This document shows positions 3,837 through 54,105 of a stretch of 64,000 bases of DNA, piece by piece (positions within the stretch are counted from its first letter, which is position 1; each line of letters begins with the position of its first letter). The notes beneath the pieces were generated by a model. That model did not search any database and had not been told where the DNA came from. It saw only the letters and a list, made by a program, of their open reading frames with translations. This DNA is from Pseudomonadota bacterium (GTDB lineage: Bacteria > Pseudomonadota > Gammaproteobacteria > Burkholderiales > Casimicrobiaceae), in contig JAFEDD010000002.1 in NCBI GenBank assembly GCA_018241765.1, forward strand, positions 1 to 64,000, in the 5' to 3' direction. Made by a program: the position numbers and the translations under genes.

Positions 3837-4166
3837 TCAGCCAGCGTCGGTTCGCCGCCGCGCCCGCGCTTCGCGCAGCAACGCCATGCGTTGCAGCAGC
3901 GCCCGCGCCTTCGCGCTCTGCGCCTCGCCGCGCGCATCGAGCCCTCGCCACTCGATTTCGAGCGCAGCCAGCGCGCGCAACTCGGCCACCTCCGGCGGCG
4001 TGAATCCGGCATGTTTCAGCACGCGGTGGAGCGCGCGCACCTCGGGCGGCACCAGCGGCTCGACATCGAGATCGAGCGGCGCGCCTTCCCCCGGCAACGC
4101 GGTCAATTCGCCCCGACGCACGGCGTCGCTGACGCGTCGTTCGGCGATGATGTCGGCCCAGTGCAT
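3837..4166 (-). CDS. DUF1992 (DnaJ-related) protein
   Basis: 109-residue cytoplasmic protein of the DUF1992 family. Family members are sometimes called DnaJ-homologue subfamily C member 28-like, though no J domain is present here. The conserved core is at the N-terminus: WADIIAERRVSDAVRRGE, LPGEGAPLDLD, then VPPEVRALHRVLKHAGFTPPEV. The rest is a basic helical tail. Function unknown. The start is the single good ATG; a 21-bp perfect palindrome lies 30 bp upstream. It converges on yqeY. Confidence 0.8.
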   Translation of the reverse strand: MHWADIIAERRVSDAVRRGELTALPGEGAPLDLDVEPLVPPEVRALHRVLKHAGFTPPEVAELRALAALEIEWRGLDARGEAQSAKARALLQRMALLREARARRRTDAG

Positions 4167-4195
4167 GAAACGTTGGCGTTGCTGCGAGTGATTCG

Positions 4196-4216
4196 TTGCG
4201 TAACTATGTTACGCAA
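4196..4216. promoter_or_regulatory. 21-bp perfect palindrome, possible operator
   Basis: TTGCGTAAC-TAT-GTTACGCAA is a perfect 9-bp inverted repeat with a 3-bp centre, 30 bp upstream of the DUF1992 start. Its length and symmetry suit a dimeric repressor such as a TetR-type protein. No regulator gene is adjacent, so the binding partner is unknown. It lies about 35 bp outside the REP array and does not resemble the array units. Confidence 0.35.
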
Positions 4217-4249
4217 GCTCCGCATAACCTCTCACCGCCAAGGGCCGCA

Positions 4250-5193
4250 GCGGGCTCGACCGCGCTGGGTCGCGTTCGATGACCGGTGGCGGTGATCAAC
4301 CGCACGAAAGCGACGTCAAGCCGTCGCCTACAGCCTGTAGGCGCGGGCTTGACCGCGCTTGGCTGCCTTCGACGACCGCTGGCAATGACCAACCCCACAA
4401 AAGCGACGTCAAGCCGTCGCCTACAACACGTAGGCGCGGGCTCGACCGCGCTGGGTCGCGTTCGATGACCGGTGGCGGTGATCGACCGCACGAAAGCGAC
4501 GTCAAGCCGTCGCCTACAACACGTAGGAGCGGGCTTGACCGCGCTGGGTTGCGTTCGATGACCGGTGGGGTTGATCAACCCCACGCAAGCGACGTCAAGC
4601 CGTCGCCTACAACCTGTAGGAGCGGGCTTGACCGCGCTTGGCTGCGTTCGATGACCGGTGGCGACGATCAACCCCACGCAAGCGACGTCAAGCCGTCGCC
4701 TACAACACGTAGGCGCGGGCTCGACCGCGCTGGGTTGCGTTCGATGACCGGTGGGGTTGATCAACCCCACGAAAGCGACGTCAAGCCGTCGCCTACAACA
4801 CGTAGGCGCGGGCTCGACCGCGCTGGGTCGCGTTCGATGACCGGTGGCGGTGATCGACCGCACGAAAGCGACGTCAAGCCGTCGCCTACGACATGTAGGC
4901 GCGGGCTTGACCGCGCTGGGCTGCGTTCGATGACCGGCGGCGAGAACAACCGCACGAAAGCGACGTCAAGCCGTCGCCTACAACACGTAGGAGCGGGCTT
5001 GACCGCGCTTGGCTGCATTCGACGACCGCTGGCGATGACCAACCCCACGAAAGCGACGTCAAGCCGTCGCCTACAGCCGGTAGGCGCGGGCTTGACCGCG
5101 CTTGGCTGCGTTCGATGGCCGGTGGCGATAGCCGCACGAAAGCGACGTCAAGCCGTCGCCTACAGCGCGTAGGCGCGGGCTTGACCGCGCTGG
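4250..5193. repeat. Tandem REPIN/BIME-like array, about ten 93-bp units
   Basis: Ten copies of a unit start (CGACGTCAAG) at 4311, 4404, 4497, 4590, 4683, 4776, 4869, 4961, 5054 and 5143. The period is 93 bp with one 92 and one 89; a half unit precedes the first. Each unit holds two inverted REP-like hairpins. The minus-strand one is GTAG plus stem GCGACG/CGTCGC; the plus-strand one is GTAG plus stem GCGCGG/CCGCGC. Both share the loop GCTTGA or GCTCGA. The two GTAG heads face each other across a variable 5-nt spacer, and a roughly 44-bp linker completes the unit. Because 93 is divisible by three, long open frames appear on both strands; I judge them non-coding. Confidence 0.88.
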
Positions 5194-5227
5194 CCGAACG
5201 CTTTCCGCAGTTGCCGTTCGTCGTGCC

Positions 5228-5335
5228 GCTCGGCATCCATGACAGGCTTCCCGCGCGAAAACGTGCCAAGTCGACTTCAGCGGCATTTCGCTTGCAAGCC
5301 CGTCATGGACGCCATTTCAGCAACAAGCTGATGAC
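5228..5335. repeat. Interspersed palindromic repeat, copy 1
   Basis: Imperfect long palindrome centred on AAGTCGACTT (5268-5277). The left arm contains GGCATCCATGACAGGCTT, the right arm GCAAGCCCGTCATGGACGCC. The outer left end is eroded. It lies directly behind the REP array and in front of the frameshifted secreted-protein gene. Confidence 0.75.
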
Positions 5336-8016: not shown

Positions 8017-8142
8017 CATCAACTTTCCATGAAAAGCCGCATCCACAACGGGCTTGCAGCGCGAAAACGCGCGAAGTCGACTATTCACGAAACGACGCGC
8101 CAAGCCTGTCATGAATGCGCCTTTCAGCAAAAAGCCATTGAC
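8017..8142. repeat. Interspersed palindromic repeat, copy 2
   Basis: Full-length copy between the dockerin-like gene and gabD. Left arm: TTTCCATGAAAAGCCGCATCC then ACAACGGGCTTG. Centre: AGTCGACT (8075-8082). Right arm: CAAGCCTGTCATGAATGCGC followed by CTTTCAGCAAAAAG. The element ends in ATTGAC. Confidence 0.8.
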
Positions 8143-15123: not shown

Positions 15124-15247
15124 CAATGACTTTTCAGTGAAATGGCGTCCACAACGGGCTTGCAGGCAGAAAACACGGAAACTCGACTTGGCCCCGAATG
15201 GGGCGTGAAGCCCATCATGGACGCCATTGGCGCAAAAAGCTGATGAC
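15124..15247. repeat. Interspersed palindromic repeat, copy 3
   Basis: Full-length copy. Left arm TTTTCAGTGAAATGGCGTCC then ACAACGGGCTTG, centre ACTCGACT (one base off the AGTCGACT core), right arm AAGCCCATCATGGACGCCAT then TGGCGCAAAAAGC, ending TGATGAC. It lies just upstream of the EamA-acyltransferase start. Confidence 0.8.
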
Positions 15248-24940: not shown

Positions 24941-26143
24941 ATGAGCATGCAGAAGACGATTTACGGCATCACGGTGGCGGTGCTGGGTGCGCTGTTGGGC
25001 GCGGGGGTGATGTTTCTTTGGGGCGGCGGCAAGGCGGCCCCGGCACCGCAGCAGGCGGCGACGCCAGCGCCTGTGGCCAAGGCGCCCGATGGTGCGAAGA
25101 AACCCGCTGACGGTGCGGCGAGCAAGGGCGGCGGCGCTGGCGCCGGCGCTGGCAATGCGGTGCCGGTGGAGACGGGCAAGCCCGAGCGCCTGGACTGGCC
25201 GCGCACGGTGACGGCGGTGGGCTCGCTGCGCTCCGACGAATCGGTCATGGTGCGCGCGGAGCAGTCCGGACGCATCACGGCGTTCCAGTTCCGCGAAGGC
25301 CAGCCGGTGGCGGCCGGTCAGGTGCTGGTGCAGCTCGACGATGCGGTGGCGCGGGCCGAGCTCGAGCAGGCTGTCGCCAACCAGAAGCTCGCGAAGGCGA
25401 AATTCGACCGCGCCGTGGAACTCCAGCAGAAGAACTTCATCTCGGGGCAAGCTCGCGACGAGGCCGAAAATGCGCTGCGCGTGGCCAACGCCACGGTGTC
25501 GTTGGCGCAGGCCAAGCTGACCAAGACCGTGATCCGTGCGCCGTTCGCCGGCACCATCGGGCTGCGCTCGGCCAGCATCGGCGACTATGTGAAGGACGGC
25601 CAGGACATCGTGAACCTCGAGAAGACCGACCCGATCAAGGTCGACTTCAAGGTGCCGGAACTGTTCCAGGCGAAGATCGGCGTCGGGCAGGCGCTCGCCG
25701 TCACGCTCGACGCGCTGCCGGGCCAGCAGCGCAGCGGCCGCGTCTATGCCGTCAACCCGCAGCTCGATGCGGCTGGCCGCGCCGTCGTGCTGCGCGCGCA
25801 GATGGACAACCGCGACGGCAAACTGAAGCCGGGCATGTTCGCCCGCGTGCGCCTGACGCTGTCGGACGTCGGGCCGACGCTGGTGGTGCCCGAGCAGGCG
25901 GTGGCGATGCAGGGCGACGAGCAGGTGCTCTACAAGGTGCTCGATGGCCGCGCGGTGCGCAGCAAGGTCGAAGTCGGCCAGCGTCGCGACGGCAAGGTCG
26001 AGATCGTCGAGGGGCTGCGCGCCGACGATGTCGTCGTGCTCGCGGGCTGGCAGCGCCTGCGTGACGGCGCGGCGGTGCGTCCGGCGGCCGGTGCGACCGC
26101 GCAGGACGCCGCGAACGCGAATCCGCCGGCCAAGAAGACGTAA
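24941..26143 (+). CDS. RND efflux periplasmic adaptor (membrane fusion protein)
   Basis: 400-residue adaptor that links an RND pump to an outer-membrane channel. An N-terminal membrane anchor (IYGITVAVLGALLGAGVMFLW) is followed by an Ala/Pro/Gly-rich linker, then the lipoyl half-motif (GRITAFQFREGQPVAAGQVLVQLDD), a helical hairpin (VANQKLAKAKFDRAVELQQK), the second lipoyl half (KTVIRAPFAGTIGLRSASIGDYVKDGQ) and beta-barrel and membrane-proximal domains. It pairs with the pump gene at 26323. The stop codon is immediately followed by palindromic repeat copy 4, which separates adaptor and pump. A second ATG two codons in is possible. Confidence 0.92.
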   Translation: MSMQKTIYGITVAVLGALLGAGVMFLWGGGKAAPAPQQAATPAPVAKAPDGAKKPADGAASKGGGAGAGAGNAVPVETGKPERLDWPRTVTAVGSLRSDESVMVRAEQSGRITAFQFREGQPVAAGQVLVQLDDAVARAELEQAVANQKLAKAKFDRAVELQQKNFISGQARDEAENALRVANATVSLAQAKLTKTVIRAPFAGTIGLRSASIGDYVKDGQDIVNLEKTDPIKVDFKVPELFQAKIGVGQALAVTLDALPGQQRSGRVYAVNPQLDAAGRAVVLRAQMDNRDGKLKPGMFARVRLTLSDVGPTLVVPEQAVAMQGDEQVLYKVLDGRAVRSKVEVGQRRDGKVEIVEGLRADDVVVLAGWQRLRDGAAVRPAAGATAQDAANANPPAKKT

Positions 26144-26265
26144 CAGCTTTGTCGTGAAAGCCGCATTCATGATGGGCTTGGAGCGTATTTCTTGCAAAAG
26201 TCGAGTTTTGGCCATTTGTGCGTCCAAGCCCGTTGTGGACGCCATTTGCACAAAAAGATGTTGAC
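26143..26265. repeat. Interspersed palindromic repeat, copy 4
   Basis: Full-length copy inside the efflux operon, between adaptor and pump. Left arm CTTTGTCGTGAAAGCCGC then ATTCATGATGGGCTTGG, centre AAGTCGAGTT (one base off), right arm CCAAGCCCGTTGTGGACGCC then ATTTGCACAAAAAGATG, ending TTGAC. The left end touches the stop codon of the adaptor gene. Confidence 0.8.
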
Positions 26266-38834: not shown

Positions 38835-39506
38835 ATGATCATCCGCACGCTCGGCCGCGCCGACTATCAGGCCACGTGGGATGCGATGCGCGCGTTCACC
38901 GACGCGCGCCGCGCCGACACGCCCGACGAACTCTGGGTCTGCGAGCACGCGCCGGTCTACACGCAGGGCGTGGCCGGCCGCGCCGAGCACCTGCTCGGCA
39001 ATCCGCACGGCATTGCGGTCGTGCAGACCGACCGCGGCGGGCAGATCACCTACCACGGGCCGGGCCAGACGATGGTCTACGTGCTGCTCGATCTGCGCCG
39101 CGCGGGCTACGGCGTGCGCGCGCTGGTCGAGCGCATCGAGCGCGGTGTCAGCGCGCTGCTGGCGGGCTACGGCATCGACGCCCACGGTCGCCGCGATGCC
39201 CCCGGCGTCTACGTTCGCCGAGCGCAGGCCGCATCGAGCACGGCAGACGGAGGCTTCGCGGGCGAGGCGAAGATCGCCTCCCTCGGGCTCAAGGTGCGCA
39301 ACGGCTGCACCTACCACGGCGTCGCCTTCAACGTCGACATGGATCTCGCGCCCTTCGCCAGCATCAACCCCTGCGGCTACGCCGGCCTCGCCGTCACGGA
39401 TCTCGCCACGATGACCGGCACCACGCCCGATTTCGCCGCCGTCTCGCTCGCGCTCGCGCAGGCGTTGCAGGCCAGCTTGAGCGAGAACAGCTTCGCGCCA
39501 AGGTGA
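38835..39506 (+). CDS. lipB: Octanoyltransferase LipB
   Basis: Octanoyl-ACP:protein N-octanoyltransferase, 223 residues, first step of lipoate assembly on E2 and GcvH proteins. Motifs: [34 protein letters not shown], catalytic Lys146 in [15 protein letters not shown], and acyl-accepting Cys180 in [10 protein letters not shown] short low-complexity insert ([13 protein letters not shown]) precedes the lysine motif. The last residues (SENSFAPR) and the stop codon lie inside the left arm of palindromic repeat copy 5, so the natural C-terminus was probably replaced. lipA, usually next, is not found downstream. Confidence 0.93.
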
Positions 39507-39606
39507 CGTCCATAACAGGCTTGACGCTCGATATTGCACAAAGTCGACTTCAGCATAAACGGGCCGCCAAGCCCGTTATGGATGCGGTTTTCACGAAAAA
39601 GATGAT
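39487..39606. repeat. Interspersed palindromic repeat, copy 5
   Basis: Full-length copy with a perfect AAGTCGACTT centre (39541-39550). Left arm CAGCTTCGCGCCAAGGTGAC then GTCCATAACAGGCTTG, right arm CCAAGCCCGTTATGGATGCG then GTTTTCACGAAAAAG. Its first 20 bases are the last codons and stop of lipB. Confidence 0.82.
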
Positions 39607-39642: not shown

Positions 39643-41028
39643 TCAGCTCGCCGGCAACTGCAACGTCATGCGCAGCCCGCCGAGCGGGGAAGCCTGCGCC
39701 TCGACGTGCCCGCCGTAGGTTTCCGCCAGCGTGCGCACGATGTCGAGCCCGAGCCCGGCACCCGGCTGCCGCTGATCCAACTGCACGCCGCGCTCGAACA
39801 TGCGCTCGCGCTGCGCCGCCGGAATGCCGGGGCCGTCGTCGTCGACCGTGAAGCGCAGCGTCGCGCCGTCGCGCCCGACGTCGACCACGACGCGCGAACG
39901 AGCCCACTTGCCGGCGTTGTCGATCAGGTTGCCGAGCAGTTCGTAGAGGTCCTGCGCCTCGCCGCGAAAGACCGCCTCCTCGGCCGTCGCTGCGAGCTCG
40001 AAGTTCAGGTTGCGCGCCGCGTGCAGGCGCTGCATCGTGCGCAGCAACGCGCGCAGCGGCTCCAGCACCGGCGTGCCGAGCCCGGTCGCGCGCACGGCGG
40101 CCGCAGCGCGCGCCCGCGCCAGGTGGTAGTCGACCTGGCGGCGGGCGCTCGCCACCTGCTCGCGCACCAGTTGTGGCAGCGCACCTTCTTCGCGGGCCGC
40201 CGCGTTGGCGAGGATCGTCAGCGGCGTGTGCACGGCATGGGCGAGATTGCCCGCCTGCGTCCGTGCGCGCTGCACGATGTCGGCGTTTTCCGCGAGCACA
40301 TGGTTGAACTCGCTGACCAGCGGTTGCAGCTCCTGCGGAAAGCGTCCCTCGATGCGGGTCGCTTCGCTGCGTCGCACGGCGGCCAGTTGCCGTCGCAGCA
40401 ACGAGAGCGGGCGCAGCGCGAGTTGCAGTTGCAGTGCCACGGCGAGCGCGAGCCCCGCCGCCAGCAAGCCGAGCGCGGCGAGCAGCATGCGCGTGAAGCG
40501 CTCCAGCGGCTCGGCGATCAGGGCGGTGTCGGCCGCGACCGCCAGACGCAGCGGCGGCGCGTCGTCCTCGGGCAGTTGCAGCGGTCGCGCCACGGCCAGC
40601 AGTTCATGCTGCGCGCCATCGTGCAGACGAAACACACGATAGCCCTGTGCCGGGTATGTCGCGGGCGGTGGCGGCAGCGTCAACACCTGATCCCACAGCG
40701 AGCGCGAGCGCGCGGCCGCCGCCTCCGGCTGCGCTCCCAGCCGGTCGATCTGCCAATAGAGCCCCGACAGCGGCTGCCCGAGACGCACGTCCATCGCGCT
40801 CGCGTTGACGCTGAGGCGCCCCTCGGGCGTCCAGTCCACCGCTGCGCTCAACTGATCGAGCTGCACGACCAACTGCGCTTCGAGCTGCTGCGTGATGTGC
40901 TCCTGAAAGAGATTGCGCAGGCCCCACGCCGCGAGTGCGATGGACAGCACGATCCAGACCAGCGCGCCCACCCACAGGCGCAGGCGCAGCGATCCGCCGC
41001 CCTTGCCCTCAGGTTGCGCTGCCGACAT
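39643..41028 (-). CDS. Two-component sensor histidine kinase (PhoQ/QseC-like)
   Basis: 461-residue membrane kinase. Helix 1 is WVGALVWIVLSIALAAWGL, helix 2 is MLLAALGLLAAGLALAVALQ, with a periplasmic sensor between (about 40-180). A HAMP-like linker leads to the H-box NLAHAVHTPLTIL, with His264 as the likely phospho-acceptor (compare PhoQ LTHSLKTPL). N-box LLGNLIDNAGKWAR, G1 VDDDGPGIPAAQR and G2 GAGLGLDIVRTLAETYGG complete the ATPase. It overlaps the response-regulator gene by 20 bp. The signal is unknown; the regulon is probably the PepSY/b561 module next door. Confidence 0.92.
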   Translation of the reverse strand: MSAAQPEGKGGGSLRLRLWVGALVWIVLSIALAAWGLRNLFQEHITQQLEAQLVVQLDQLSAAVDWTPEGRLSVNASAMDVRLGQPLSGLYWQIDRLGAQPEAAAARSRSLWDQVLTLPPPPATYPAQGYRVFRLHDGAQHELLAVARPLQLPEDDAPPLRLAVAADTALIAEPLERFTRMLLAALGLLAAGLALAVALQLQLALRPLSLLRRQLAAVRRSEATRIEGRFPQELQPLVSEFNHVLAENADIVQRARTQAGNLAHAVHTPLTILANAAAREEGALPQLVREQVASARRQVDYHLARARAAAAVRATGLGTPVLEPLRALLRTMQRLHAARNLNFELAATAEEAVFRGEAQDLYELLGNLIDNAGKWARSRVVVDVGRDGATLRFTVDDDGPGIPAAQRERMFERGVQLDQRQPGAGLGLDIVRTLAETYGGHVEAQASPLGGLRMTLQLPAS

Positions 41029-41680
41029 CGACGAGGCGATAGCCGAGACCGCGCACCGTCTCGATGCTGCCCGGCGGCAGCTTTTTGCGCAGGCGACCGA
41101 CGAACACTTCGATGGTGTTCGAATCGCGATCGTTGTCCCACGCGTAGATGTGTTCCGACAGTTCGGTGCGCGACAGCACCTCGCCCTTGCGTTGCATCAG
41201 CAGTGCGAGCAGCTTGAACTCGTGACTGGTGAGCGCCAGCGGGTGGCCGTCGATGAGCACCCGTGCCGCCCGCGTATCGATCTCGATCGCGCCGCAGCGC
41301 CACTGCGCGCTCGTATGCTCACCGACGCGGCGCAGCAGCGCGCGCAGCCGCGCCAGGAGCTCTTCCATGTGAAAGGGCTTGGTCAGGTAGTCGTCGGCCC
41401 CGGCGTCCATGCCGGCCACCTTCTCCTGCCACGCGCTGCGCGCGGTGAGGATCAGCACCGGCATTCGCCGATCCGCCTCGCGCCATCGGCGCAGCACCGA
41501 CAGGCCATCCTGCATCGGCAAGCCGAGATCGAGCACGACGGCGTCGAAGTCCTCCTGCTCACCGAGGTAATGACCCTCGCGACCATCGCCCGCCGACTCC
41601 ACGGTGTGGCCAGCCGCCGCAATGGCTTCGACGAGCTGCCCGCGTAGCGTCGGCTCATCCTCCACCACCAGAATGCGCAT
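41009..41680 (-). CDS. OmpR-family response regulator
   Basis: 223-residue regulator. Receiver: VVEDEPTLRGQL, phospho-acceptor Asp51 in AVVLDLGLPMQDGL, Thr in ILTARS and Lys101 in DDYLTKPFHMEELLARL. The winged-helix output has IEIDTRAARVLIDGHPLALT, EFKLLALLMQRKGEVLSRTEL and NTIEVFVGRLRKKLPPGSIETVRGLGYRL (two blocks). It is most like PmrA/QseB/PhoP. The start ATG shares its A with the TGA stop of the PepSY gene upstream, so PepSY, regulator and kinase form one unit. Members bind 11-bp-spaced direct repeats, as found in the two operator copies nearby. Confidence 0.93.
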   Translation of the reverse strand: MRILVVEDEPTLRGQLVEAIAAAGHTVESAGDGREGHYLGEQEDFDAVVLDLGLPMQDGLSVLRRWREADRRMPVLILTARSAWQEKVAGMDAGADDYLTKPFHMEELLARLRALLRRVGEHTSAQWRCGAIEIDTRAARVLIDGHPLALTSHEFKLLALLMQRKGEVLSRTELSEHIYAWDNDRDSNTIEVFVGRLRKKLPPGSIETVRGLGYRLVDVGSAT

Positions 41681-42030
41681 CAGGGGCTCCTGCGTTTGAT
41701 GCCGAGCACGCGGCCGTCGACGGCGTCGACCTTGATGCGCGCAACGTGTCCGTCGGCCTGCAACAAGCGAATCTTATAGACGAAGCGACCGTCGTCGCGC
41801 TCGAACTCCACGCGCAGCACCTGCCCCTGCTGCTCTCGTTCGATGCGTTCGAGGACGCCGCGCAGAGGCAACACCTCGCCACGCTCGAACGCCTGCCGTG
41901 CGAGATCGTGGTCGCGCCCGTGGTCGTCGGCGCGCAACGGCGCCGAAGCGGGCAGCGCGACGAGCAGCGCGAGGGCGCCGAACGCGACGCGCAGGCGCGT
42001 CGAGTGGCGGGGCGTGAGCAGGGCGTTCAT
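41680..42030 (-). CDS. Periplasmic PepSY-domain protein
   Basis: 116-residue exported protein. The signal peptide (LRVAFGALALLVALPASAPLRA) is followed by a charged linker and one PepSY domain: ARQAFERGEVLPLRGVLERIE, QVLRVEFERDDGRFVYKIRLL, and VARIKVDAVDGRVLGIKRR. Single PepSY proteins of this kind often precede QseBC/PmrAB-like pairs and may modulate the sensor. It is the first gene of the regulator operon and lies 25 bp from the shared operator. Confidence 0.85.
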   Translation of the reverse strand: MNALLTPRHSTRLRVAFGALALLVALPASAPLRADDHGRDHDLARQAFERGEVLPLRGVLERIEREQQGQVLRVEFERDDGRFVYKIRLLQADGHVARIKVDAVDGRVLGIKRRSP

Positions 42031-42054
42031 GGCTCGATTTCTAGCGCGCCCCGC

Positions 42055-42092
42055 ATGAACGACAGATGAACGCGGATTTCAGCCACGGTTCA
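42055..42092. promoter_or_regulatory. 38-bp composite operator, copy A (divergent PepSY/b561 promoter region)
   Basis: ATGAAC-N5-ATGAAC-like direct repeat with an 11-bp period (TGAAC at 42056 and 42067), then six bases, then TTCAGC-N2-CGGTTCA. The same elements with identical spacing recur at 46984-47021. The 11-bp period is that of OmpR-family response-regulator boxes. The site lies between the regulator operon and the b561 operon and could serve both. Confidence 0.6.
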
Positions 42093-42184
42093 GCAAGCGC
42101 GGCGCATCATGCACCCCATGTGTCGGGCACCCCTCGCCGACATCCCGAGCGGCCGGGATCGCCGCCTGCGCTTAGGAGACCATC

Positions 42185-42802
42185 ATGCAAGCGTTTTCCC
42201 CGTCCGGCGCGGCGCGTGCGCCGCAGCGCTTTCATCCGCTCATGATCGGCATGCACTGGCTCACGCTGGCGCTGCTGCTCGCCGTCTATGTTTTGATCGA
42301 ATTTCGTGGCGCGTTCCCCAAAGGCAGCGTGGGTCGCGACACGATGAGGCTGTGGCACGAGATGCTCGGCCTCACCGTGCTCGGGCTGGTGTTCGTGCGT
42401 CTGGCGCTGCGCGCGGTGCTGCCGGCGCCCGAACCGCTCGTGGCGCCACGCTGGCAGCAGCGTTTCGCGCGCCTGATGCACGTGGCGCTGTATGTCTTTC
42501 TGATCGCAACGCCGATTCTGGGCTGGCTGATGCTCAGCGCCAAGGGCAAGGCAGTGCCGTGGTTCGGCTTCGATCTGCCCTCGCTGGTTGGGCCGGATCG
42601 CGCGCTCGGCCGCCGTTTCGAATCGATGCACGAGGCGATCGCAACCCTCGGCTACCTGCTGATCGGCGTCCACGCTGCCGCCGCGATCGGCCATCACTAC
42701 CTGCTGCGCGACGACACGCTGCGGCGCATGCTGCCCTGGCGCCGCCTCGACGCCCCATCGAAGGCGCCCTTGGTCACGGAGAACGGCCATGAACCGGCGT
42801 GA
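42185..42802 (+). CDS. Cytochrome b561
   Basis: 205-residue di-haem membrane cytochrome that exchanges electrons with the quinone pool. Four helices carry the haem-ligand histidines: HPLMIGMHWLTLALLLAVYVL, RLWHEMLGLTVLGLVFVRLAL, RLMHVALYVFLIATPILGW and LLIGVHAAAAIGHHYLLRDD. The C-terminus is a short cytoplasmic tail. It is the first gene of the operon to apbE, overlapping the next gene by 14 bp, and is preceded by operator copy A. GGAGAC seven bases before the ATG is the ribosome site. Confidence 0.93.
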   Translation: MQAFSPSGAARAPQRFHPLMIGMHWLTLALLLAVYVLIEFRGAFPKGSVGRDTMRLWHEMLGLTVLGLVFVRLALRAVLPAPEPLVAPRWQQRFARLMHVALYVFLIATPILGWLMLSAKGKAVPWFGFDLPSLVGPDRALGRRFESMHEAIATLGYLLIGVHAAAAIGHHYLLRDDTLRRMLPWRRLDAPSKAPLVTENGHEPA

Positions 42803-43181
42803 CGCGACGCTTCGCCGCGCCGTGCTCGCCTCGGCGTTGGCGCTGGCCGTCGGTCTCGGCGCGTGGCCGGCGCTCGCCGCCGACGAGTGCGATGCGCCTG
42901 CGGCGCGCTGGCAATCGCGCGAGGCGGTGCGCAAGATGGCAGCGCTGCGCGGTTGGCAAGTGCAGCGATTGAAGATCGACGACGGCTGCTACGAGCTGCG
43001 TGGCGTCGACGCCGAGGGGCGCGCATTCAAGGCGCGCATCGACCCCGAGACGCTCGAGGTGCTGCGGATGCAGACCCGTGCGCGCGATGGCGATGGCCAT
43101 CGCAAGCGTGAACGCGGCGGCCCCGGCGCACAAGGCGCTGCGCCAGCCAACGAATCCTTCCCTGCTGGAGCATCGTCATGA
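42789..43181 (+). CDS. Periplasmic PepSY-domain protein
   Basis: 130-residue exported protein: signal peptide (RAVLASALALAVGLGAWPALAA), then one PepSY-like domain (WQSREAVRKMAALRGWQVQRLKIDDGCYELRGVDAEGRAF, in blocks; KARIDPETLEVLRMQ) with a cysteine in DDGCYEL and another in ADECDAP that could pair. A Gly/Ala-rich tail follows. It overlaps b561 (14 bp) and the DUF2271 gene (4 bp). Probably a periplasmic partner of the electron-transfer module. Confidence 0.83.
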   Translation: MNRRDATLRRAVLASALALAVGLGAWPALAADECDAPAARWQSREAVRKMAALRGWQVQRLKIDDGCYELRGVDAEGRAFKARIDPETLEVLRMQTRARDGDGHRKRERGGPGAQGAAPANESFPAGASS

Positions 43182-43657
43182 CCGACAAACCCACCCTCAC
43201 CACCCTCGCCGCCGCCTGTGCGCTCGCCCTGCCCGTGCTGTCCGACGCACGGCCGGTGACGATCAGCACCACGCTGAAGAACTACGACGGCAACGGCGCC
43301 TACCTCGCCATCTACCTGACCGATGCCAAGGGCGCCTACGCCGGCACGCTGTGGGTAGCCGGCAGCAAGGCGAAGTACTACAAGCATCTGGCCGACTGGA
43401 ACCGCCTGTCGGCGGCGGATGGCAAGCGACTGGTCGGCATCACCGGCGCCAGCGTCGGCGCCGGCCGCACGCTCAAGGTGACGGCGGAACTCGCCGATGC
43501 GCTGCTCGATGCCGGCTATGAAATCCGTGTCGATGCCGCCGTCGAGGACCTGCGCGACAGCCCCGCCGACGTGCGGGTGCCGCTGACGCGCGCCAACGCC
43601 GGCAAGGCGCAGCCTGGCAAGCAGTACGTGCAGACGCTGACCTACGACCTGCCATGA
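43178..43657 (+). CDS. DUF2271 periplasmic protein, candidate flavin carrier
   Basis: 159-residue exported protein of the DUF2271 family. After a short signal (LAAACALALPVLSDARP) come beta strands VTISTTLKNYDGNGAYLAIYL and YAGTLWVAGSKAKYYKHLADW, both family blocks. Residues 86-92 read V-G-I-T89-G-A-S92, which resembles the flavinylation motif D-x-x-(S/T)-G-A-(S/T) recognised by ApbE, though the leading acid is missing. With apbE two genes downstream, Thr89 may carry covalent FMN. That is inference. It overlaps its neighbours by 4 bp on each side, implying tight co-translation. Confidence 0.82.
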   Translation: MTDKPTLTTLAAACALALPVLSDARPVTISTTLKNYDGNGAYLAIYLTDAKGAYAGTLWVAGSKAKYYKHLADWNRLSAADGKRLVGITGASVGAGRTLKVTAELADALLDAGYEIRVDAAVEDLRDSPADVRVPLTRANAGKAQPGKQYVQTLTYDLP

Positions 43658-45888
43658 CGCTGCGTCTCGCGTTCGGCTGGAAGGCACTGCACCGCTGGGT
43701 GGGCCTGCTCGCCGGTGCCGTTGCGCTGGTGCTCGCCGTCACCGGGGTGCTGCTGGCGGCGGATCCGGTGCAGCGGGCCTGGCAGTCGCCGCCGATGCCG
43801 CTGGCGACGTCGGTCGCCGCGCTGGCCGGGCGTGTCGCGCAGACGGTGCCGGGTGCGCAGGAGATCCGCCGCCTGCCCTCGGGCATGCTGGTGGTGCACG
43901 CCTTCGACGGCGATCAGGCGCGCGCGGTGCGGGTCGACCCCGCCGATGGCCGCGTGCTCGGCGGGTACGAGGCATCGCTGATGCCGCGCTGGGTGAAGAA
44001 CCTGCACCGCTCGCTGCTCCTGGGCGATGCCGGGCGTTGGGGCACGGCGCTGACGGCGCTGGCGATGCTCGCGCTGTCGGTGTCGGGGCTGGTCCTCTTG
44101 CTGCGCCGCATGGGTGGCTGGCGGCGGCTGACCGGCGCGGTGCGCGGCACGCTCGCGCAGCGCGTCCATGTGCTGATCGGCCGCGTGGCGCTGGTGGCGC
44201 TGCTGGTCAGTTCGATCAGCGCGCTCTACCTGAGCGCCGCGACGCTTGGCCTGATCGGGCGCGATGCGACCGGCGACGCGGAGATGATCTCGCGCGTGGC
44301 GCCGGGCGCGGCCGCCGTCGACCGCGCGCCTGAGCGCCTGCCGGCGCTGCAGGGCATCGCGCTCACCGATCTTCGCAAGCTGAGCTTTCCGGACGCCGCC
44401 GACCCCGAGGACGTCTGGCAGGTGGTCACCGTGGACGGCAGCGGCGGCATCGATCGCTATTCGGGGCAATGGCTCGGGTGGCAGCGCGCGAGCCTCGGGC
44501 AGCGCCTGGACGAGTGGGCGTTGCTGTTGCACAGCGGTGACGGCGCCTGGCCCTGGGCGCTTGCGCTCGCGGTGCTGGCGGCGAGCATCCCGCTGTTCTG
44601 GATCTCGGGCGTGTTCATCTGGTGGCAGGCGCGGCGCGACCGCCCGCGCTTCGAGCACAACGCGGCGGTCGCCGACGCTGATGTGCTGATCTTCGTCGCC
44701 AGTGAAGGCGGCAGCAGCTGGGGGTTCGCCGAGGCGCTGCACGGCGCGTTCGTCGCCGCCGGGCATCGCGTGCATGCCGACGCGCTCGAGCGCTTTCACG
44801 TCGGCCCGCGGGCGCGGCAGGTGCTCGTGTTGGCCGCCACCTACGGCGAGGGGCAGGCGCCGGCCCATGCGCGCGACGCGCTCGCGGTCATCGCGCGGCA
44901 GCCGGTGCGACCGATTCCGGTCACCGTGCTCGGCTTCGGCGATCGCCAGTTTCCGGCCTTTTGCGCGTTTGCCGAGGACGTCGAGCGTGTGCTGCGCGAG
45001 CGGGGCTGGCCGAGCCTCTTGCCGCTCGAGCGCGTCCATCAGCAGTCGGCGCAGCAGTTCGCGCGCTGGTGCGAAGCGTTGGCGGCGGCGCTCGGTGAGC
45101 CGTTGCAGCCGCGCTACCGGCCACGGCTGCCGGCCACCACGTCGCTCACGCTGGTGGCGCGGCAGGAGTTCGCCGCTCGTGAAGGTTCGCGCAGCGCGAT
45201 CCTGCGCTTCGCATGGCCGGCGCAGAGTCGATGGCAGCGCTGGCTCGGGCGCGGCCTGGGGCGCTTCGAGGCGGGTGACCTGATCGCCATCGTGCCGCCC
45301 GGCTCCACGGTGCCGCGCTATTACTCGCTCGCCTCCGGCAGCGCCGATGGCTTCGTCGAAATCTGTGTGCGCCATCTCCCGGGCGGACTGTGTTCGACGC
45401 ATCTGCTCGGGCTTGCGCCGGGCGACGGCGTGGACGCCTTCATCCGCGCCAACCCCGGTTTTGCATTGCCGCGGAGGCGGCGACCGGTGCTGCTGATCGG
45501 CGCCGGCACCGGCGTCGCGCCGCTCGCCGGGTTCATTCGACGCAACGAGCGGCGCGCGCCGATGCATCTGTTCTTCGGCAGCCGCGATCCGGCGAAGGAT
45601 TTCTACTTTCAGCCCGAGCTTGCGCGCTGGCGCGACGACGGGCGCGTCGCCACGGTGCGTACCGCGTTCTCAAGGGTGCCGGGCGGTGGCGGCTATGTGC
45701 AGGATGCGCTGCGCCACGATGCCGATCGCGTGCGTCAATTGCTCGCCGATGGCGCCGTCGTGCGCGTCTGCGGCAGCCGCCCCATGGCGCAGGGTGTGGC
45801 CGACGCGCTCGATGCCATCCTCGCGGGGCTGCGCTCGAGCGTGCATCAACTGAAATTGCAGGGCCGCTATGCCGAAGACGTGTTCTGA
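43654..45888 (+). CDS. PepSY-TM/flavodoxin/ferredoxin-reductase fusion
   Basis: 744-residue membrane flavoprotein. The first third is a PepSY_TM unit with four helices (WVGLLAGAVALVLAVTGVLL; TALTALAMLALSVSGLVLLL; VHVLIGRVALVALLVSSISA; WALALAVLAASIPLFWISGV) and a PepSY loop. A flavodoxin-like domain (VLIFVASEGGSSWGFAEALHGAF, about 345-490) and a CysJ/CPR-like reductase follow: RYYSLASGSADGFVEICVRH for FAD, VLLIGAGTGVAPLAGFIRRN for NAD(P)H and VCGSRPMAQGVADALDAIL. It can take electrons from cytoplasmic NAD(P)H across the membrane. The arrangement matches iron-uptake-related reductases, but the acceptor here is probably in the operon. Confidence 0.88.
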   Translation: MTLRLAFGWKALHRWVGLLAGAVALVLAVTGVLLAADPVQRAWQSPPMPLATSVAALAGRVAQTVPGAQEIRRLPSGMLVVHAFDGDQARAVRVDPADGRVLGGYEASLMPRWVKNLHRSLLLGDAGRWGTALTALAMLALSVSGLVLLLRRMGGWRRLTGAVRGTLAQRVHVLIGRVALVALLVSSISALYLSAATLGLIGRDATGDAEMISRVAPGAAAVDRAPERLPALQGIALTDLRKLSFPDAADPEDVWQVVTVDGSGGIDRYSGQWLGWQRASLGQRLDEWALLLHSGDGAWPWALALAVLAASIPLFWISGVFIWWQARRDRPRFEHNAAVADADVLIFVASEGGSSWGFAEALHGAFVAAGHRVHADALERFHVGPRARQVLVLAATYGEGQAPAHARDALAVIARQPVRPIPVTVLGFGDRQFPAFCAFAEDVERVLRERGWPSLLPLERVHQQSAQQFARWCEALAAALGEPLQPRYRPRLPATTSLTLVARQEFAAREGSRSAILRFAWPAQSRWQRWLGRGLGRFEAGDLIAIVPPGSTVPRYYSLASGSADGFVEICVRHLPGGLCSTHLLGLAPGDGVDAFIRANPGFALPRRRRPVLLIGAGTGVAPLAGFIRRNERRAPMHLFFGSRDPAKDFYFQPELARWRDDGRVATVRTAFSRVPGGGGYVQDALRHDADRVRQLLADGAVVRVCGSRPMAQGVADALDAILAGLRSSVHQLKLQGRYAEDVF

Positions 45889-46834
45889 AGTGAGCCTGCC
45901 CGCCAGCCGGCGGACGCTGCACGGCCCGACGATGGGCACGCGCTGGTCGGTCACGCTCGATGAGGCTCCCGAAGACTCGCTCGATCGCCTGCAGGCCGCG
46001 CTGTCCGGCGCGGTGGCGGAAGTCGATCACCAGATGTCGCCGTGGCGAGCGGACAGCGATCTCGTGCGCTTCAACGAGGCGCCGGTCGGCGCCTGGGTCA
46101 CGTTGCCCGAAGCGATGACGCAGGTGCTCGCCCGGGCGCTCGACGTCGCGCGCTGGAGCGATGGTGCCTTCGATCCGACCGTCGGCGCGCTGGTCGATGC
46201 CTGGGGCTTCGGCGCGGCGCGCGACACACCCGACGGCGCGGCCATCGTGGCGGCGCGCGCCGCCGCGCGGGGCGGGCCGGGACACCGCGCGCTGGAGCTC
46301 GATGTCGGCGCCCGGCGTGCGCGAAAGCTCGCGCCGTTGCAACTCGATCTCTGCGGCATCGCCAAGGGATTCGCCGTCGACCGCATGGTCGAGCGCTTGC
46401 GCGGGCACGGCATCGAGCGCGCGCTGGTCGCGCTCGACGGCGAACTGCGCGCGCTCGGCGGCCAGCGCGATGGCCACGGCTGGCCGGTGGCGGTGGAGCA
46501 ACCCGAACCCGGTCGCCGCGCCGCGCACAGCGTGCTCGAACTGCGCGACATCGCCGTCGCCACCTCGGGTGACTACCGGCGATTCTTCACCTTGCAGGGC
46601 GAGCGCATCGCGCACACGATGGACCCGCGCCGCGCCGCGCCGCTGCGCAACGAGGTGGCCGCCGTCACCGTGCTGGCGCCCGAGTGCATGAGCGCGGACG
46701 CTTGGGCCACGGCGCTCCTCGTCGTCGGCGCCGATGACGGCATGGCGCTCGCGGGGCGGCATGGCCTCGAAGCGATGTTTCTGCTGCGTAGCGACGGGGC
46801 GCTCGTGGCGCAGGGCTGCGGCGCGTTCGCCTGA
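45869..46834 (+). CDS. apbE: FAD:protein FMN transferase (ApbE)
   Basis: ApbE-type flavin transferase of 321 residues, which moves FMN from FAD onto Ser/Thr of target proteins. Family blocks: GPTMGTRWSVTL, VDHQMSPWRADSDLVRFNEA, LDVARWSDGAFDPTVGALVDAWGFG (two blocks), LDLCGIAKGFAVDRMVE, ALVALDGELRALGG, VATSGDYRRFF and IAHTMDPRRAAPL with the Mg-binding region. No signal peptide or lipobox is visible, although many ApbE proteins are exported; export may be missing or the start misread. ATG 45869 overlaps the reductase gene; a GTG at 45890, directly after the reductase stop, is also in frame. Confidence 0.9.
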   Translation: MPKTCSEVSLPASRRTLHGPTMGTRWSVTLDEAPEDSLDRLQAALSGAVAEVDHQMSPWRADSDLVRFNEAPVGAWVTLPEAMTQVLARALDVARWSDGAFDPTVGALVDAWGFGAARDTPDGAAIVAARAAARGGPGHRALELDVGARRARKLAPLQLDLCGIAKGFAVDRMVERLRGHGIERALVALDGELRALGGQRDGHGWPVAVEQPEPGRRAAHSVLELRDIAVATSGDYRRFFTLQGERIAHTMDPRRAAPLRNEVAAVTVLAPECMSADAWATALLVVGADDGMALAGRHGLEAMFLLRSDGALVAQGCGAFA

Positions 46835-46850
46835 GCGCGCGCGAACGGCA

Positions 46851-46972
46851 CATTGGCTTTTTGCGCAAACGGCGCCCATAACGGGCTTGGCGCCATGATT
46901 CGCTGATAGTCGACTTCCGGCAAATTCATGCGCCAAGCCCGTTGTACACGTCATTTCCGGGAAAAGCCGATG
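46851..46972. repeat. Interspersed palindromic repeat, copy 6
   Basis: Full-length copy behind apbE. Left arm CTTTTTGCGCAAACGGCGC then CCATAACGGGCTTGGCGCC, centre AGTCGACT (46908-46915), right arm GCGCCAAGCCCGTTGTACAC then GTCATTTCCGGGAAAAG. It ends 12 bp before operator copy B. Confidence 0.82.
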
Positions 46973-46983
46973 CGTTTTCGTCG

Positions 46984-47021
46984 ATGAACGTTCGTTGAAC
47001 ATGCGCTTCAGCATCGGTTCA
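46984..47021. promoter_or_regulatory. 38-bp composite operator, copy B
   Basis: TGAAC at 46985 and 46996 (11-bp period), six bases, then TTCAGC-N2-CGGTTCA (47007-47021). All parts and spacings equal those of copy A at 42055-42092, while the bases between differ. It lies 65 bp upstream of the small exported protein, so that gene probably belongs to the same regulon. Confidence 0.6.
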
Positions 47022-47086
47022 CGGTGCGCCGCGCACACTGGCATCGCAGTCGATTCCGGCTGCGCCCATCGACCAAGGAGCATCCC

Positions 47087-47353
47087 ATGAAAGCACTCAT
47101 CCGCATCGCTTCGATCACGCTGCTGTGCAGCGGCATCGCCACCGCCTCGTGGGCGGGCAGTCACCGCGATTCCCGCGGCGACGGCCTTCAAGCCGTCGTC
47201 CACCACGCGCAAACGGGCGAAGCCGCCCACGGCTGGCGCTACTTCACCGACCCTGCCGCGCTGCGCGCCGTGGTCATCAGCCCCGACGGTGACTACTACC
47301 TCAGCGTCGGCAAGGGGCTGCGCTGGATCGCACGGCGCCCGCTGTCGGCGTGA
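47087..47353 (+). CDS. Small exported protein of the PepSY/b561 regulon
   Basis: 88-residue protein with a clear signal peptide (LIRIASITLLCSGIATASWAG, cleavage after AWA or AWAG). The mature part of about 65 residues has no motif I recognise (DGLQAVVHHAQTGEAAHGWRY, then YYLSVGKGLRWIARRPLS). AAGGAG ten bases before the ATG is the ribosome site. The operator copy upstream ties it to the two-component system at 39.6-41.7 kb. It converges on the hypothetical gene at 47370. Confidence 0.72.
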   Translation: MKALIRIASITLLCSGIATASWAGSHRDSRGDGLQAVVHHAQTGEAAHGWRYFTDPAALRAVVISPDGDYYLSVGKGLRWIARRPLSA

Positions 47354-49635: not shown

Positions 49636-49844
49636 CCGTTCGATTCGGTTCCCGACACGAGTGCGCCGTGTTTGCATTGATAGTGAGCGCGGGCTCACGT
49701 CGTGCCGCGCTTGCCGGAACGCAACGAAACCTCATGCCACTGAGACTCGCCACGCCGCCCCGAGTTGCCGCGATCCGTCACGGCGGTCGTCGTTTCGTCC
49801 GCTCATCGACCCGGCTCTCGCCCATGAAACCGCACCAAAATCGG

Positions 49845-49968
49845 ATATGGCTTTTCGCTGAAAAGCGCATCCATGACGGGCTTGCAGCGCAATATGGCCA
49901 AATATCGACTTCACGCCAAAACGCGCTCCAAGCCCGTCATGGATGCGCCTTTGCGGAAAAAGTTGTCA
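49845..49968. repeat. Interspersed palindromic repeat, copy 7
   Basis: Full-length copy. Left arm GGCTTTTCGCTGAAAAGCGC then ATCCATGACGGGCTTG, centre ATATCGACTT (decayed), right arm CCAAGCCCGTCATGGATGCG then CCTTTGCGGAAAAAG, ending TTGTCA. Its last bases are the stop codon of the S9 peptidase gene. Confidence 0.82.
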
Positions 49969-53976: not shown

Positions 53977-54018
53977 GTCGCCATGCCATTCGTTCGCAGG
54001 GCGGACTCCGTACACGAT

Positions 54019-54105
54019 ACAGCTTGATGCTGGAAGGCGCATCCATAACGGGCTTGGAGCGCGAAATGCCGCCAAAGTCGACTTGAAATCACGGAAAAGT
54101 CATTA
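54019..54105. repeat. Interspersed palindromic repeat, copy 8 (right arm deleted)
   Basis: Left arm TTGATGCTGGAAGGCGCATC then CATAACGGGCTTGGAGCGC and a perfect AAGTCGACTT centre (54075-54084). The right arm lacks the AAGCCCGTTATGGATGCGC part and goes straight to its outer end (GGAAAAGTCAT). It marks the left edge of the region between mutL and the surface protein. Confidence 0.72.

Follow-up and report, generated by a model that had tools for sequence, protein, structure and literature searches.

The first 64,000 nucleotides of contig JAFEDD010000002.1 (GCA_018241765.1), from a member of the Casimicrobiaceae (Burkholderiales) and referred to here as the window, carry genes for a cytochrome b561, a PepSY_2 protein, a DUF2271 protein, a PepSY-TM reductase and an ApbE flavin transferase, divergent from genes for a small PepSY protein, a response regulator and a sensor kinase. 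Our analysis indicates that these genes constitute a DUF2271 flavinylation system of the PepSY-like kind, governed by a two-component switch of its own and with the electron path set out below, a reading to which we give a probability of about 0.72. The core is of a known kind and what is new is its well-supported regulatory wiring, in which a 37-bp operator-like array tracks the cognate kinase across genomes, together with an unexplained location of the ApbE enzyme. Papers are cited by their PMC numbers.

Gene content and conservation of the module

Comparisons were made with the best 80 of 92 loci picked by similarity to the window's DUF2271 in a scan of named genomes, mostly from Burkholderiales with some from Pseudomonas and Xanthomonadales and including Diaphorobacter nitroreducens (L018) and Rhodoferax antarcticus (L014) (L and G numbers are our handles for loci and genomes). 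As the loci share descent, p-values serve as a guide only. The overlapping organisation and gene families given by the first-pass annotation were borne out. On the plus strand the genes for cytochrome b561 (42185-42802; PF01292, E 1.6e-24), an exported PepSY_2 protein (42789-43181; PF13670, E 1.1e-25), DUF2271 (43178-43657; PF10029, E 1e-33), a PepSY-TM part fused to flavodoxin and FAD/NAD(P) reductase domains (43654-45888; PF03929, E 1.6e-37) and ApbE (45869-46834; PF02424, E 4.5e-81) overlap by 14, 4, 4 and 20 bp, against the 3-20 bp first reported. The divergent operon was likewise confirmed at 42030-39643 on the minus strand and consists, from its first gene onwards, of a small exported PepSY protein (41680-42030; PF03413, E 1.9e-9), an OmpR-family response regulator (41009-41680; Response_reg and Trans_reg_C, nearest NCBIfam PmrA) and a sensor histidine kinase (39643-41028; HATPase_c, E 1.7e-20, nearest NCBIfam PhoQ).

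Our script recognised the full set of PepSY_2, DUF2271, reductase and ApbE in 63 of the 80 related loci, and DUF2271, reductase and ApbE in 69, so the gene order is no chance assembly; several of the incomplete loci are broken by contig ends or hidden under longer overlapping open reading frames (ORFs). Two cysteines of PepSY_2, C34 and C67, are kept in 72/72 sequences. In one locus (L041, G073:C1:278465-279286) the apbE match is split in four pieces, which points to gene breakage or to an error in sequencing. In 16 other genomes of the genus and in two of 19 others of the family no DUF2271 passes the family cut-off, yet proteins in Burkholderiales records reach ~80% identity, and for this reason a horizontal gain of the module (42185-46834) is possible.

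DUF2271 as a candidate flavin carrier

The candidate site for flavin mononucleotide (FMN), T89-G-A-S92 (codons 43442-43453) in the context VGITGAS, was correctly placed and lettered by the first-pass annotation, and falls at a low-confidence loop (86-91) of the structure model. That annotation also took loss of the TGAS column in DUF2271 proteins beside apbE as a refutation, a check that the carrier reading passes in this subfamily. In an alignment of 81 DUF2271 proteins (79 of the 80 loci, L018 having been missed by the script, plus L003 and L004) the [ST]-G-A-S motif is present in every sequence, and its first residue is T in 53 and S in 28. For 70 of the sequences an apbE was found at the same locus. 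A DUF2271 protein has previously been found to be flavinylated by its cognate ApbE, and mutating the Thr of [S/T]GA[S/T] abolished this (Meheust 2021; PMC8238504). Since the window's genome, which is ~90% complete, has a single DUF2271 and a single ApbE and no FMN_bind domain was found in it, the proposal that DUF2271 is a flavinylated carrier gains in strength. A fold search with the DUF2271 model (predicted local distance difference test, pLDDT, 74.6) was uninformative, the top PDB match being a C2 domain at E 0.03.

Two features of the motif sit less well with this proposal. The likeness to the classical D-x-x-(S/T)-G-A-(S/T) target extends to the TGAS core and not to the D at -3, which is V in the window. 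Relatives have D 45, Q 14, N 12, A 8, T 1 and V 1 at this position, so the window's residue is rare and, with D in only 45/81, D is not required there. In five distant DUF2271 clusters (L184-L188) the motif reads TGPT, TGPT, SAAT, TQPT and SGAT respectively, and is therefore degenerate in four of the five, while ApbE was recognised in all but L186. To judge by these alignments, conservation of TGAS holds for this subfamily and is not seen family-wide. The clusters L184-L187, in which the degenerate motifs occur, are of the DUF4198 type and three of the four have a recognised ApbE.

DUF2271 as an ApbE substrate in PepSY-reductase clusters is already in print (PMC8238504), and we make no claim of novelty for the core. 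The same paper counts 2833 PepSY-like clusters with DUF2271 and 1077 PepSY-like genes with an NAD-binding domain. The window shares both traits of such systems, namely a PepSY-TM reductase with an NAD-binding domain, DUF2271 and ApbE in one cluster, and the conserved [ST]GA[ST]. It differs in having no DUF4198 and in adding b561, PepSY_2, a two-component switch with its array and a small co-regulated protein.

Probable electron path through the reductase

Four histidines of the reductase (H13, H118, H172 and H293) are invariant in 72/72 sequences and match the two haem sites, with two His each, of the PepSY-like FoxB (PMC11334425), which lends support to electron transfer by this protein as first proposed. 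The C-terminal part is nearest to the flavoproteins of NADPH sulfite reductase (CysJ) and P450 reductase and for this reason NADPH (reduced nicotinamide adenine dinucleotide phosphate) is the likely donor. In the chemistry and direction of flow that we infer, electrons would pass from NADPH to the flavin adenine dinucleotide (FAD) and FMN of the reductase, to two haems in its PepSY-TM part, to FMN on T89 of periplasmic DUF2271 and on to an acceptor, which published work on clusters of this kind would best suggest to be ferric iron. It is very probable that the cluster moves electrons across the inner membrane and onto a small protein bearing flavin.

A second entry of electrons may be provided by b561, in which H24, H58, H149 and H163 are kept in 12-13 of 13 sequences, or by a ferric-reductase-type protein in the same slot in relatives. 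Among 26 loci with cognate regulators the first slot of the operon holds the ferric-reductase type in 11, b561 in eight, YceI only in two and none of the three in five, with typing by Pfam in L011 and L066 (ferric-reductase type) and L010 and L129 (YceI) and by likeness to these elsewhere. Because the ferric-reductase type is the commoner occupant, quinone exchange via b561, which had been suggested for the module, is not borne out as a general trait and b561 appears to be one among several possible membrane partners. In some relatives the module also includes genes of the YceI family (L129 3741-4385, with its own array; L010 6840-7466).

A probable two-component switch of the SK1 type

SK1 kinases carry SGVYWQ and RSRSLWD motifs and always occur with an accessory ORF, SK2 kinases are QseC-like, and both are tied to operons encoding SHP (PMC2909971). 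Both motifs of the SK1 type occur in the kinase of the window, as SGLYWQ and RSRSLWD. We divided the kinases of related loci into class A (score >400, or PepSYs encoded at the locus) and class B (score 200-400), and found both motifs in 23 of 25 class A kinases and in none of 17 of class B. Four of these 17 were scanned and all are nearest to QseC, below its cut-off. DUF2271 modules therefore seem to be connected with the two types of kinase known from SHP operons. Assignment to the NCBIfam equivalogs PhoQ, PhoP and PmrA was rejected, with 139, 202 and 216 bits against cut-offs of 497, 336 and 330 respectively. Iron sensing by an ExxE motif of the BqsS/PmrB type was also rejected, as no aligned E/E column pair occurs in at least three of 26 kinases.

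The SK1/Orf1 systems of SHP-DHC-CytB operons (PMC2909971) share with the window the two motifs, the divergent arrangement and periplasmic redox neighbours. They also have an accessory periplasmic ORF (Orf1) beside regulator and kinase, to which the small exported PepSY protein may correspond by its place. They differ in that the window's switch would control a flavin path rather than SHP, and the array common to both operon kinds is defined here. No connection between SK1 and DUF2271 was found in the literature searched, in excerpts and titles alike, and searches for a link between PepSY, b561 and two-component systems returned no paper. The gene order of the divergent operon, with the small exported PepSY protein ahead of regulator and kinase, is also that of DbfQRS, in which the small PepSY protein controls the kinase (PMC12714742), and an 11-bp direct-repeat operator is shared with BqsRS (PMC12666569). 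Relative to both, the window has a different half-site, no ExxE and a regulon consisting of an electron-transfer module. The SK1-type kinase, probably tuned by the co-encoded small periplasmic PepSY protein, would control the response regulator.

The stimulus may be one other than iron. In Vibrio, DbfQRS is triggered by damage to the membrane but not by addition of Fe(II)/Fe(III) (PMC12714742), the kinases of our loci lack a conserved ExxE, and arrays also stand upstream of YceI and of the small exported gene, so that it is a serious possibility, if one short of probable, that the module serves envelope stress or repair, with a switch that reports membrane damage and a flavin path that reduces periplasmic components. 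However, in other bacteria Fur represses PepSY-like DUF2271 clusters, which are linked with iron there (PMC8238504; PMC11870441), and the likeness to DbfQRS is one of gene order.

A flavin transferase without an export signal

Export signals were scored with a hydrophobicity window and by eye. Of the 80 loci 71 have an ApbE match, and the alignment, limited to ORFs of >280 aa, has 67 rows including the window's. None of these 67 operon enzymes has the N-terminal lipobox, Sec or Tat signal of classical ApbEs, and the 30 residues that precede their conserved GTRW region contain no hydrophobic stretch (12-residue means of at most 0.77). By contrast, a hydrophobic signal of the Sec type is present in 82/82 DUF2271 sequences (12-residue means 1.52 to 2.94). 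A longer N-terminus is excluded in the window by an in-frame TGA (45851-45853) six codons upstream of the apbE start. As the enzyme is signal-less throughout and its candidate target signalled throughout, the simplest reading suggests that FMN is joined to DUF2271 before export, with ApbE most likely acting in the cytosol, and attachment in the periplasm as first proposed becomes doubtful.

Cytosolic ApbEs with intracellular targets are named in a review (PMC12052999). The Klebsiella enzyme described there resembles the window's in having no signal peptide, but its target is a soluble cytosolic fumarate reductase whereas the candidate target here is Sec-signalled. The available passages of PMC8238504 are silent on the presence of a signal in the ApbE of PepSY-like DUF2271 systems. 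The ApbE used in that study (WP_053936888.1) is termed signal-peptide-truncated by its authors. In two distant DUF2271/DUF4198-type clusters (L184, L185) the ApbE start is also without a signal, and in L188, which is of another type, it is lipobox-like.

FMN could still be attached in the periplasm if the operon ApbE were exported without a recognisable signal or if another, exported ApbE acted on DUF2271. Classical ApbEs are exported and their periplasmic location was essential in an early study (PMC12052999), and additional ApbE matches occur in about two thirds of a set of 29 genomes (that of the window plus 28 others, from loci picked for regulators or array). Of 17 such stretches from the same genomes 13 start with a Tat- or lipobox-like sequence, three are unclear (L167, L169, L183) and one (L182) is cut by a contig end. 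We nevertheless regard periplasmic attachment as unlikely, given the absence of a signal from all 67 operon enzymes, the upstream stop in the window and the lone ApbE match in 10/29 genomes, the window's among them. A signal-less flavin transferase beside an exported target, as the sole such enzyme found in the genome, contradicts the classical picture.

An operator-like array shared by the promoters

Comparison of the window's two promoters yielded the 37-bp array TGAA-N7-TGAA-N7-TTCA-N7-TTCA, in which pairs of direct repeats at an 11-bp step are mirrored round the centre. With up to one mismatch it occurs twice in the window's genome, in the divergent promoter (42056-42092) and before the small exported gene (46985-47021), and nowhere else. 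It was found in 27 of the 29 genomes at one to four sites each, and the pattern read backwards gave no site in any of them. Among the 80 loci the array is present in 23/26 with the cognate system, 0/17 with the other kinase class and 9/37 with no system nearby, and two rearranged control arrays had no match. In the 37 genomes without a local system the window's kinase (E <= 1e-60) was found in 9/9 with the array against 2/28 without it (Fisher p 4.4e-7), although only 44 candidates were scored in many genomes having more, and some of the 26 negatives may hide a kinase.

The pairing extends to genomes in which the parts are unlinked. In three near-identical Comamonas-type loci (G076, G078, G079) the regulators are on one contig and the flavin operon on another, with an array before each, and an unlinked small gene also has its own array in L126, L127 and L137. 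G083 has one PepSY-regulator-kinase set on the contig of the flavin operon (L015) and a second on another contig. These data support and extend the earlier claim that the module is regulated.

In 51 distinct sites (102 with both orientations) A is present at +14 in 83% and at +16 in 75%, and this pooled signal places a predicted -10 element on either side of the array at a distance of 12 nt. The window has TAGAAA at this distance on the minus strand (42038-42043), ~8 nt upstream of the PepSY start codon, and CATCAT on the plus strand for the b561 operon (42105-42110), both at the position of the pooled signal; the second array is followed, also at 12 nt, by a weak CACACT (47034-47039, plus strand; 3/6 consensus letters). 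An activating OmpR-type regulator takes the place of the -35 contact and needs such a spacing of the -10 element. The spacing of the array would therefore suit a regulator of this kind, which we infer to bind the four half-sites 11 bp apart and to drive the two divergent operons as well as the small exported gene that stands apart from them.

An order-wide search for the exact array was made in 399 genomes not picked for DUF2271. In total, 16 genomes including the window's contain the array, and the backwards control had no match among the genomes listed. The array adjoins module genes in 10 of the 15 others: PepSY-regulator-kinase genes in six, a DUF2271 operon in one (with regulators ~5 kb off), the small gene in one, a ferric-reductase-type gene in one and a weak PepSY_2 alone in one (38 bits). 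One further genome has it at EptA-like/PAP2 genes with a PmrAB-like system and four have no related gene. For G580, G594, G638 and G666 the neighbours were read in the 3 kb round the first site.

The four genomes lacking a related gene are among several observations that weigh against a strict pairing of array and switch. Three class A loci have no array (L010, L034, L081), of which L010 and L081 have kinases without the SK1 motifs and L034 has them, and the kinase is present in two array-negative genomes as noted above. Related arrays also stand beside EptA-like phosphoethanolamine transferase/PAP2 genes with a PmrAB-like system (L128 at 3263; L228 at 3411), and because this is another two-component system the half-site may be common to sister regulators and not private to this one. 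That the array is the site of another factor or an RNA hairpin rather than this regulator's operator would agree with the perfect dyad of the half-sites and with the near-identical arrays at EptA, but is improbable in view of its tracking of the kinase across genomes, its constant distance from the PepSY start in most loci, the -10-like signal on both sides and an 11-bp direct-repeat step typical of OmpR-family sites such as the TTAAG-N6-TTAAG of BqsR (PMC4682146).

The array also marks two SHP/DHC operons (L222, L224), which are among the six order-wide cases with PepSY-regulator-kinase genes. The controlled genes include DUF1924 and DHC cytochromes, and further along come PepSY_2 and a gene of the ferric-reductase type. 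In L222 the DUF1924 protein matches PDB 1dw0, which we take to be SHP, at 2.7e-33.

The small exported protein and repeats in the window

The small exported gene assigned to the module by the first-pass annotation is present at 47087-47353 on the plus strand but stands outside the operon, ~250 bp downstream behind a repeat element and with its own copy of the array. The pattern G-W-x-Y-F ... V-V-I-x-P-x-G-x-Y-Y-x-S-x-G-x-G-L is common to 14 homologues of its product, in one or two copies each, with 20 columns invariant among 10 aligned homologues, and the structure model is a four-stranded meander (pLDDT ~90). The small protein (window 47087-47353; also L126, L127, L137, L047, L207) has a unit of ~45 residues, which in some relatives is doubled. 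A fold search gave no match below E 0.48. Likeness to a beta-propeller blade, found with designed 'Cake' proteins from the single sequence (E 1.8e-9, no stretch passing alone), was not upheld by a profile search, with 0 matches at 0.01. That it acts as a partner or scaffold is guesswork.

Palindromic repeats of ~95 bp whose ends resemble CCAAGCCCGTTATGGA form a family with 13 matches (<=2 mismatches) in the window against 0.44 expected, with copies at 5233-5326, 8033-8134, 15139-15240, 26138-26256, 39500-39601, 46872-46965, 49842-49962 and 54014-54082. Two copies flank the module; the first lies beyond the kinase gene, and the second separates apbE from the small gene. Approximately eight direct repeats with a 93-bp step occupy 4156-5198.

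Implications for flavin and haem electron paths

We tentatively propose, at rather less than even odds for the two parts taken together, that in this group DUF2271 receives its FMN in the cytosol and is exported via Sec as a flavinylated precursor with no need of periplasmic FAD, and that one SK1-type switch with its operator has been plugged to either a flavin (DUF2271) or a haem (SHP/DHC) path. The locus itself provides a flavinylation-based electron path with a candidate sensor and operator, where the regulation named in the available literature is that by Fur, and links flavin modules by one switch to the little-understood SHP cytochrome operons. If the proposal is true, flavin and haem paths would represent interchangeable outputs of one periplasmic redox response.

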